NCBI GenBank assembly: GCA_024741835.1
Contig: JAENRP010000297.1
Span: forward strand, 1 to 56,548
Length of the DNA stretch: 56,548 nt
Direction of reading: 5' to 3'
DNA from: Diplocarpon mali
Lineage: Eukaryota > Ascomycota > Leotiomycetes > Helotiales > Drepanopezizaceae
Of this stretch, positions 48,546 to 51,757 are shown in pieces (position 1 is the stretch's first letter; each line of letters starts with the position of its first letter). A program made the position numbers and the translations under genes. The notes below the pieces were generated by a model. That model did no database searches. It saw only the letters and a program-made list of their open reading frames with translations, and was not told the origin of the DNA.

Positions 48546-51496
48546 CTTAAGTAGTAAACTTAATAAAATAAAAGGCTTCTATCGAAATAGTAAGCTATTC
48601 CTATCTAATAAAAAGGAAATTTGCACTATCGATAATAATATATATATTATTAAGGAACAGCCTTCTACTAACTCCTCTAGTTATATAAGTGGATATACTC
48701 TCCTAGCTGCTATCGAGAATAGACCTCTTAATATTAAGCTTTAGCACCGTCGATTAAGCTATACTAGCCTATAAATAGTTAGAAAGACCTAATCTGCTAT
48801 TACTAATATGCAGATTAGGGAAACAAAATTAAGGAAGACGCGCATTTGCGCTCCCTACGAGAAAGGCAGACCTCTCCGATATATTAATAAACGTTTAGCT
48901 TGCCCTCAACCTATAAAGGCACTTGACAAGCTATATATTAATATAGTTTATCTAAAGCCAACTGGCCTTAATAGCTATAAATATGCTTCTATCTTCACTT
49001 ACGCAGCTATAATAGCTAGATGGAAATAGACCTATACAAATAAATCTAATGCCTTCGAGGCAAATAAGAAGATGATCAGCCTCTTATAAACTTAGTATAA
49101 TTGCATAATTAAATAGTAGAGAACTGATAAAGGTAAGGAGTACTCTCTTATATAAATGCGAATACTTATAGAAAACCTTAGTATGATTTTAAAGGAATCT
49201 ACTCTATATATGCTAAAATAAGATAGCAGATTAGAACGATCAATTTATATACTAATAGAAAAGTTGCGAATAACTATAATTGATCAAAATATCCCCTCCT
49301 TTCTTTAGCCTTACCTCCTTCTTTTAATAATATATATCACTAATCTTACTACCTTTAATATTCTTAATAGCAAGACTCTATATAAGGTCTTTTAAGATAA
49401 TATCAAGCTTAATAAGCCGCATACTCCCTTAGTCAAGCATCTTCGAGTACTAGGCTATCGCGTCTATATGCTAATTAAGAAAGAAAAGCGAACTTAAAGC
49501 AATAAACTCGCTTTAAGAGCAGAGGTAGATACTCTTATTAGATTTAATAGCAGAAGTATCTATCAAATCTATATACTATTGCAAATAGGTAAAAAGATTA
49601 TTCGATTATCTTACGTTTAATTTGATAAAGATAGCCTAATTATAGAACCGCAATTAAAGGGTGATTTCACTCCTAGGCCGGGACCGCAAGTCGATTTAAG
49701 AGAAGCTAATAAAGCTGAGCTTCCAACTTTAAGAAAGAGAGGAAGACCTCCTGGTTTAAAGAATAAGGCTTACCCTTAGCCTTTTGAAAAGAGAGCTACT
49801 CGCTTTACTACTCTTGGATTTAAAGCTAATAACTCTAATAATAAAGAAGCCTATTTAAGCGCCTTCCATATGGCTTTACTCAACTCTCCTTACCTAAATG
49901 ACTTGAAAACAATCGAATAAGCCCTCTCTTGCGCTAATGCTAATAAATAGCGATCTGCGATCAACTTTAAGTACAATTTCCTCGCTTATAAGAATATATA
50001 AGTAGTAGTAAAATACTTAAAACTCTTTAAAGACGATAGAGTACTTGGATTAAGGCTTGTCTTTAAAATAAAAAGAGACTAAAATAGGGAAATCTCCTAA
50101 TAGAAGGTCAGATTCGTTATATAAGGCTATATATAATAATAAGGTCGAGATTACAACTAGACTTTTGCTAAAGTATGCAAATCTATAGTTTAAAAGATCG
50201 CAATTGCACTTATAGTGCTATACAACTTTAAGCTAAATCAGTTCGATATTAAGATAGCTTTCCTTAATTTAGAAGCTAACTTTAATATCTATATTAAGTT
50301 ACCTCTTAGATATACTTAAGATAAGGTCGTTCTTTTATCTTAAGACTATTATCTTAAGCTTCTTAAGGCCTTATATAGCTTAAAGCAATCTCTACAACTA
50401 TAATAAGAAAAGCTATAGTCTAAGCTATAAAAGCTCGATTTTCAACCTTTTGATACTAATAATTGCGTATATATCAACCGCGCCTCTCGGATTCTTATTA
50501 TCACCTATATTAATAACTTCCTTATAGTAGCAAAGAAGGGTAATATATATAATAAGTTTAAGAGAGATCTTCGCAACCTTTTTAAAATTATAAGTAGCGA
50601 ACTGGCTAACTACTTTTTAAGAGTATATATAGTTAGAGATCGATAAAATAGAATAATCTCACTTTATTAAAATGCTTATATTAATAAGGTTCTTAAACGT
50701 TTTTATATAACTAATTGCAAAAGCGTACCTATGCTATTTACTAATAGCTATAAAGTTCATATAGTCAAATTCAAAGGCTAAGCCACTCTATAGGAAGTAA
50801 AGCTATACTAAAAGATCTATAGTTCTTTATAATACCTTACGCACTATATGCGTTAGGATATACTATACTACTACTCTATTCTTAGCAAATTCCTTACTAA
50901 CCCTTTACTATAATATATAATAGCTTTAAAACGAGTTCTATAATACTTATAAGGAACGCAATTCTATTATACTACCTTTGGAAGTAAAACAATTGACTTA
51001 AAGCTTTAGAAATTATATAGCTACTACGATTCTAATTAAGCAGGTAATAAAGGAAGTAGAGCCTCCTATTCTAAGGCCGTCTTCTTCCTTAATAATAGTA
51101 TAATTACCGCCTCCTTTAAGCGATAAACTATTATCGCTCTCTTATCTATAAAAGCAGAGTATATTACTATATGCAAATTCGTATAAGAAGCCTTTTAAAT
51201 ATACTAGGTACTTAAGGAAATAGGCTACGCTAGCGATAATACTACTAAAGTCGAGATGATCTGCGATAATTAAAGAGCCCTTTATCTTATTGAAAATCCT
51301 AAATATTATTAGAGAATAAAGCATATTAATATCAAGTTCTATTATATTCGATAAGAGCTTTAGAAAGGCTATTTGGACCTCTAGTATACTAATACCAAAG
51401 ACAACGCCGCTAATAGACTTACTAAGAGCTTAAATAGCTTTAACCACGCCGCCTTTATCAAATTATTAAATATAAAGGTTCTGCACCTCGATTAAG
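48546..51496 (+). pseudogene. B1 pol: protease end, integrase, RT, RNase H
   Basis: The frame resumes from 21221 after E. GAG-pre-integrase about 48735-48900 has H-R-R-L-S-Y and C-A-P-Y (second zinc Cys now Tyr). Integrase core follows, open at 48808-49029; its first Asp is Asn (Y-I-N-I-V), then R-T-D-K-G-K-E-Y, and Glu is kept in R-L-E-R-S. A linker carries one 23-bp motif (49669-49691). Reverse transcriptase about 50020-50700 has L-Y-S-L-K-Q-S and Y-I-N-N for YVDD at 50516-50527. RNase H about 51000-51400 has K-A-E-Y-I and M-I-C-D-N. The end near 51496 is set by a TAA in L-H-L-D-stop. Stops are of RIP type throughout. Confidence 0.88.
49669..49691 (+). repeat. Single 23-bp motif in the B1 integrase-RT linker
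   Basis: ACTCCTAGGCC, g, GGACCGCAAGT, in frame as F-T-P-R-P-G-P-Q-V-D. It is preceded by aaagggtgatttc, the same purine-rich word found before the 3' copy at 51574. In B2 this site has three copies. Confidence 0.9.
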
Positions 51497-51757
51497 GGGT
51501 GATCTTTTTTATACCTTCTATTATAGGGTGATTTTTTTTTTTTTACACTTCTATTAAGGGGTGATTTTTTTTCACTCCTGGGCCGGGCCCGCGAGTTGAT
51601 TTTGACTTACTAAGGGGTGGATTTCGCGCTAGCGAACTCTACTCTATTTCCAATATCTGCAAGTTGATTTTTTCATACGAAACTATAGATTATAACAAAA
51701 GTTATAATATCATATGTATTGCTAGCGAGTACCTTTAAAGGTCTTCTTAAAGGGGTG
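51497..51757 (+). other. 3' region of B1 with repeated polypurine-like words
   Basis: The word taaggggtgat followed by a T run occurs at about 51494 and 51556, with a variant at 51524 (atagggtgat), and aaaggggtg directly precedes the LTR as the probable plus-strand primer. One 23-bp motif (51574-51596) is the most perfect palindrome in the window: ACTCCTGGGCC, g, GGCCCGCGAGT. No gene. Confidence 0.75.

Follow-up and report, generated by a model that had tools for sequence, protein, structure and literature searches.

MITEs and REP elements are short inverted-repeat units that occur at high copy number. Palindromes that are repeated in unrelated coding sequences, in frame and with a conserved peptide, are described for the Rickettsia palindromic elements (RPEs) (PMC10969869). 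The GC clusters of yeast mitochondria, such as GC42, are short GC-rich palindromes scattered across AT-rich DNA, mostly between genes, and flanked by direct repeats of AG or ACT (PMC4478555). In Magnaporthe, a LINE generates chimeras by joining unrelated RNAs during reverse transcription (PMC2104539).

The unit described here is a near-palindrome of about 35 bp. It resembles RPEs in being palindromic, in frame in unrelated coding sequences and read as a conserved peptide. RPEs, however, are about 150 bp long and reside in Rickettsia genes, whereas this unit lies in a eukaryotic nucleus and was found in retrotransposons only, not in host genes. With GC42 it shares the form of a short GC-rich palindrome scattered in AT-rich DNA, but it is nuclear and partly coding, and no such flanking repeats were found. 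It matches MITEs and REP elements as a short inverted-repeat unit of high copy number and differs from them in that no target duplication was found. The Magnaporthe LINE fuses different transcripts, whereas here one fixed unit recurs inside LTR elements. An earlier note on this DNA had likened the unit to RPEs and to the yeast clusters; the likeness may hold for the way of working, while size, location and flanking repeats make it a member of neither. It may best be read as a palindromic passenger of retrotransposons that works like RPEs or GC clusters without belonging to either. No publication on such a unit was found in a literature search that had most subscription journals outside its coverage.

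Occurrence in the window and in the genome

The window is the whole stretch of DNA analysed, the 56,548 nucleotides of contig C297 (JAENRP010000297.1) in the 49.4-Mb, 676-contig assembly of Diplocarpon mali (GCA_024741835.1). It is AT-rich and bears a strong RIP signature (TA/AT 1.3–1.8); a comparison with Rfam returned nothing reaching the gathering score. A weight matrix of the 23-bp core, run over the window at thresholds 8 to 14, gave 61 core sites, unchanged across these thresholds. The chance expectation per window, from 20 Markov-simulated windows, is 0.35 at threshold 12 and 0.05 at 14. This agrees with the previous estimate of about 60 copies, including seven in gypsy E. By Pfam, carriers A and B are copia elements (RVT_2) and E is a gypsy element (RVT_1, with Integrase_H2C2 slightly below the cut-off). 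Copia A holds 35 cores in arrays and 11 in 3′ regions, copia B two in the gag linker, four in integrase–RT linkers and two in 3′ regions, and gypsy E seven. Eight A or B LTRs were checked, and none of the 61 window cores lies inside them. The sites are as follows.

1119..1588, + strand: copia A copy 1, 10-core array upstream of RT (39/48 spacing beyond the first core)
4700..4850, + strand: copia A copy 1, three cores upstream of the 3′ LTR (weight matrix)
17053..17522, + strand: copia A copy 2, array of 10 cores (weight matrix)
20878..20954, − strand: copia B gag–protease linker, two cores reversed to the gene (TREPGPGV in the related intact protein P0003)
24898..24986, − strand: copia A copy 3, two cores upstream of the 3′ LTR (weight matrix)
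28098..28432, − strand: copia A copy 3, array of 7 cores (weight matrix)
36754..37136, + strand: copia A copy 4, 8-core array (in the frame counted from the RT domain)
40248..40398, + strand: copia A copy 4, three cores upstream of the 3′ LTR at 40537–40731 (weight matrix)
43278..43345, − strand: gypsy E RNase H–integrase linker, two cores at a 45-bp step (weight matrix; P0123)
45210..45367, − strand: gypsy E array, four cores between protease and RT at a 45-bp step (weight matrix; P0124)
47117..47139, − strand: gypsy E, single core near the gag start (weight matrix; P0123 and P0124)
49669..49691, + strand: copia B copy 1 integrase–RT linker, one core in frame with RT
51574..51596, + strand: copia B copy 1 3′ region, core upstream of the 3′ LTR (arm bases pair, one pair excepted)
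53447..53596, + strand: copia A fragment, three cores upstream of its LTR (weight matrix)
54509..54630, + strand: copia B copy 2 integrase–RT linker, three cores 45 and 54 apart (weight matrix)
56511..56533, + strand: copia B copy 2 3′ region, core (weight matrix)

The polypurine-tract-like sequence AAGGGGTGATTT stands before the cores in the copia B linker (49655–49668) and recurs several times in the B 3′ region (51496–51574 and 56420–56510). Elsewhere in the window, a 2.7-kb insertion in copia A (14020–16697) has 182-bp direct repeats, 91% identical, on either side and no core.

Over the whole assembly, a strict pattern (at most two mismatches) matched 1,395 times forward and 1,451 times in reverse, 2,846 in all, and a RIP-tolerant pattern 4,117 and 4,242 times, giving 8,359 strand matches; symmetric copies score on both strands in these counts. 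The reversed-pattern control gave 0 and 0 matches for the strict and RIP-tolerant patterns alike. The earlier note had proposed a whole-genome profile count as a check, and the count is clearly above chance. The RIP-tolerant pattern recovers 42 of the 61 window cores and hits no other window position. Genome-wide, the copy total may approach ten thousand. An artefact of chance or composition, with RIP leaving similar GC islands in unrelated elements, was considered, as the core is poor in CpA and hence spared by RIP. It is refuted by the excess in the window (61 against 0.35 expected), by the empty genome-wide control and by the presence of the unit in little-RIPped DNA (L085, GC 51%) and in intact proteins.

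Edges, composition and pairing of the unit

The edges were analysed with one copy per site, using three sites from A, three from B, three from E, one from element F and 13 from gypsy I (both described below). These amount to 23 sites, or safely 22, since the F site is perhaps homologous to an I site. Positions −6 to −1 and +1 to +6 around the core are conserved over the 23 sites, with p<0.05 at 11 of the 12, most clearly at −3 to −1, +1 to +3 and +6. Between 7 and 20 bp from the core, 3 of 28 positions reach p<0.05, and similarity is at background beyond 6 bp. The 23-bp core first described is real, but the unit is longer, comprising the core plus 6 bp on each side and taking the form RATTTS-core-SRAWTY. 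At the 10 sites taken as non-coding, the flank signal is seen only at −3 to −1, +1 to +3 and +6; positions −6 to −4, +4 and +5 are not significant there, and −19 and +8 reach p<0.01. Fixed ends within unrelated flanks are thus found over the 23 sites, with 6-bp edges that are less clear at the 10 non-coding ones. A smaller set of 17 sites showed the same edge, but I sites were counted there as several families.

These edges bear on whether longer repeat-bearing stretches were exchanged between families by template switching or gene conversion, with the flanks diverging later. Such patch recombination would leave common flanking sequence, and the A array and the E array do have a 16-bp spacer stretch in common on the same side, as do A3b and I407 for 15 bp. 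With the sets as then labelled, 10 of 1,184 between-family flank comparisons gave p<0.001 against about one expected, two of the ten being F510/G688, the same site; four inverted flank comparisons likewise gave p<0.001. We nevertheless consider this explanation unlikely, as similarity over the 23 sites falls to background so close to the core and the two bursts checked (below) are almost without transversions, so that old flanks should still show.

The core has a GC content of 47%, compared with 32% for the window. Its least altered form contains a single CpA/TpG, at positions 6–7, and 57 of 61 copies have A at position 7. The description of the core as GC-rich in AT-rich DNA therefore holds with the qualification that the difference arises partly because so little CpA/TpG is present. 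Near-perfect 35-bp palindromes (three mismatches or fewer) were found at 72 sites; the best of those listed have three mismatches, and most of the 50 listed are of the B-linker type.

The arms of the copy at 51574–51596 form nine Watson–Crick pairs, one T–G and one C–C, and the pairing previously quoted for it is correct. Across the 23 sites, arms pair in 177 of 253 cells, compared with 171.8 ± 4.1 for shuffled partners (p 0.12). When bases are reduced to purine and pyrimidine classes, which are blind to RIP, 226 cells pair compared with 224.0 (p 0.30). Pairing is thus slightly, not significantly, above shuffled partners at these sites, and a hairpin kept by compensatory change is unsupported, as is the covariation of the arms that had been proposed for testing. 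The copies at 56511 and 43278, said in the earlier note to keep the pairing with other bases, carry changes of the RIP kind (CpG to TpG to TpA, and TpG to TpA). The predicted folding energy is −21.3 kcal/mol for an idealised 35-mer and −9.7 and −7.1 kcal/mol for two nearly un-RIPped forms.

Reading in proteins and relatedness of the carriers

Three proteins from D. coronariae contain the unit. P0003, of the copia B type, carries three TPGPGPRV repeats in its integrase–RT linker and two of TREPGPGV in its gag–protease linker. In the gypsy E protein P0123, TPGPGPRV stands in gag, and the RNase H–integrase linker holds TPGPGPRA as well as TPGPGPRV; P0124, also gypsy E, has TPGPGPRV in gag and twice more between protease and RT. 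The palindrome therefore encodes a conserved in-frame peptide in unrelated genes, TPGPGPRV being identical in linkers of copia B and of gypsy E. Reading the core as its reverse complement gives TREPGPGV; in the present genome, the reversed matrix fits 14 of 14 B gag cores (seven copies), and B linker cores are forward. Intact proteins allow five linkers to be read, and in all five the unit occupies one codon phase, which both orientations share because the palindrome centre is a third codon position. The phase of the A array, counted in frame from RT, agrees. The RNase H–integrase copy of gypsy I is out of phase, its first base being a third codon base in the frame of both neighbouring domains. 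The strict motif occurs in 3 of 124 proteins compared, namely the three D. coronariae carriers; of the others, two were pieces translated from this genome and 119, many of which were incomplete, had been selected for an RT similar to that of P0003. In A, B and E, the coding copies that are least altered differ at positions 6, 9, 12 and 15, all third codon positions, and sites taken as non-coding vary also at positions 5 and 14.

The identity of the peptide between copia B and gypsy E and the restriction of coding differences to third positions are what would be expected if the unit had been acquired because it is helpful and were kept by selection as a flexible polyprotein linker, a processing site or an RNA signal. 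Such a function seems to us quite unlikely, because the unit is reversed in B gag, often sits in 3′ regions and is out of phase in the gypsy I copy between RNase H and integrase, because arm pairing is not kept, and because gypsy D and the B relatives manage without the unit. Function within the elements and patch recombination both retain some probability.

The three unrelated families named in the earlier note, A, B and E, are joined by a fourth outside the window. Gypsy I is 15.7 kb long (C1:394020–409744; L093–L096), with 248-bp LTRs that are 90% alike, 13 cores and the Pfam domains RT_RNaseH, RT_RNaseH_2 and Integrase_H2C2. Loci L022, L043, L051, L052, L011 and L087 are parts or likenesses of it. 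F, G, H, I and J had been treated as separate families, and this was dropped when a 20-kb stretch of C1 showed them to be parts or relatives of one 15.7-kb gypsy; among the pieces of these loci searched with Pfam, no credible domain appeared save the three above, in L094. Element F is a 3.0-kb LTR element related to gypsy I (C21:180326–183315; L049/L022), with 251-bp terminal repeats. It interrupts a copy of element D, and the part of it searched contains no credible Pfam domain. About 9 kb at the 3′ side of gypsy I holds 8 of its 13 cores, and a Pfam search of 5 kb of this part (L095) found no domain.

Measured on RIP-altered copies in which stops are written as X, copia A and B are 30% identical over RT–RNase H, gypsy D (window about 7000–11800) is 38% identical to E and has 0 cores, and gypsy I, which has cores, shares 22% identity with E over 326 residues. 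The closest protein to a fairly intact copia B piece is P0003, with 83% identity over 208 residues. Eight long relatives of P0003 (42–58% identical) lack the motif in both linkers, whereas copia A carries cores in spite of its distance from B. The presence of the core thus conflicts with the relatedness of the elements, and inheritance from a common ancestor of the four families, already judged unlikely in the earlier note, is rejected on this discordance.

Host DNA was sampled as 15 stretches of 4 kb drawn regardless of the motif. The 14 stretches with GC of at least 44%, 56 kb of gene-rich DNA, contain 0 cores, their non-coding part included, and the fifteenth, in which 1,185 bases are masked, is a D-related repeat that likewise has no core. 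Forty of the 2,846 strict matches, some of them neighbours, were inspected, and all 40 lie in A, B or I/F. The copies examined sit in nuclear-type LTR elements and are thus not mitochondrial. As it is seen only in LTR retrotransposons, the unit does not look like a general inserter that can land anywhere in the genome. A palindrome with defined ends, high copy number and both orientations might still be a miniature element that moves as DNA, mobilised in trans by a transposase and tolerated solely in heterochromatic retrotransposons. We regard this as very unlikely, given that no target duplication was found at 17 sites, that cores are absent from the gene-rich sample, including its non-coding part, and that none was found outside LTR elements. 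At L053, L055, L048 and L037, a repeat of 220–450 bp, 67–74% identical, recurs between gene-rich stretches and repeat flanks.

Copy-number change and the proposed route of spread

Core number varies among copies of the same site. With seven overlapping loci excluded, B linkers have 1–4 cores (18 copies), B gag two in 7 of 7 copies and the B 3′ region one in 13 of 13; the A 3′ region has three in 6 of 7 copies and two in the other, and A arrays have 7–10 (7 copies). The E RNase H–integrase site has one, two and three cores in 8, 4 and 4 of the 16 copies read, at 45-bp steps, and L089 has four and L088 three, at 54-bp steps. Array lengths vary among copies in steps of 39–64 bp.

Empty sites were searched for with joined flanks as the query at five sites, with 40 candidates scored per site out of 104, 175, 126, 239 and 1,142 first found. 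At I394937/F, 36 of 39 full-span copies exceed the join by exactly 23 bp and the rest by 20, 22 and 32, and one further copy matched in two pieces. At the E RNase H–integrase site, 13 of 13 full-span copies exceed it by 23 bp, with 27 in pieces or one-sided. All 37 full-span copies at I406603 exceed it by 35 bp (three in pieces or one-sided), as do 35 of 36 at I404959, where one exceeds it by 36 and four are in pieces. At site H, the query copy exceeds the join by 35 bp and other copies are in pieces only. Empty copies therefore number 0 of 39, 13, 37 and 36 at four sites and none at site H, a weak test with at most 40 candidates scored per site and copies that come from recent bursts.

At I406603 and I394937 (21 sequences at one of the two sites and 22 at the other), the 989 core cells and the 516 cells of the 6+6 bp are free of transversions, and the 5,927 cells beyond contain 4. 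These 43 sequences, with many transitions and almost no transversions or indels, form a clean RIP record. The copies at each of the two sites likely stem from one recent filled source in a burst, followed by RIP. Since the near absence of transversions points to recent bursts, fixation of the unit does not date its movement, and the argument that always-filled sites speak against mobility was dropped because the uniform filling reflects those bursts. Direct repeats of 1–8 bp near the edges are no commoner than after shuffling (17 sites). The earlier note had looked to orthologous sites lacking the core plus a short duplication; the five sites yielded no empty copy and the 17 no target duplication. 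At L087:590–690, the I406603 core lies between the two copies of an imperfect direct repeat about 22 bp long; other sites have no such repeat.

That a discrete unit is dispersed across unrelated LTR elements is well supported. We put evenly balanced confidence in the reading that this 35-bp near-palindrome, at no fewer than 22 distinct sites in four retrotransposon families, spread between families as a discrete passenger copied into element RNA or cDNA during reverse transcription. The sharp edges, the occurrence in two copia and two gypsy families, the two orientations and the placement in both linkers and 3′ regions argue for such a passenger, as do the genome-wide excess, the discordant presence and the restriction to LTR elements. 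The reading is weakened by the lack of an empty site, of a target duplication and of a pairing excess, by edges that are less clear at the non-coding sites and by the 16-bp spacer common to A and E, and no enzyme, free RNA or active source came to light. What was proposed earlier, a palindromic element inserting into or copied between retrotransposons, thus keeps its discrete unit, sharp edges, both orientations and discordant presence, and loses the expected empty sites, duplications and covariation. A link of the copying to reverse transcription is suggested because only LTR elements were found to carry the unit. In this process, reverse transcriptase would switch onto a hairpin or a co-packaged RNA, insertions that break proteins would be lost afterwards, and sources already filled would be amplified. 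More tentatively, the unit could be a retrotransposon hyperparasite. It would then be a palindrome that codes for protein in a eukaryotic nucleus, moves solely between LTR elements by reverse-transcriptase capture in virus-like particles and is read as a harmless proline–glycine linker both ways.

If the passenger reading is true, a sequence lives off retrotransposons in the way that these live off genomes, and does so across the copia–gypsy divide. The unit would then provide a countable natural record of sequence exchange among elements that share a genome, and would supply polyproteins with in-frame linkers that come ready-made. If function keeps the unit instead, one 8-residue module common to deeply separated polyproteins would still need explaining.
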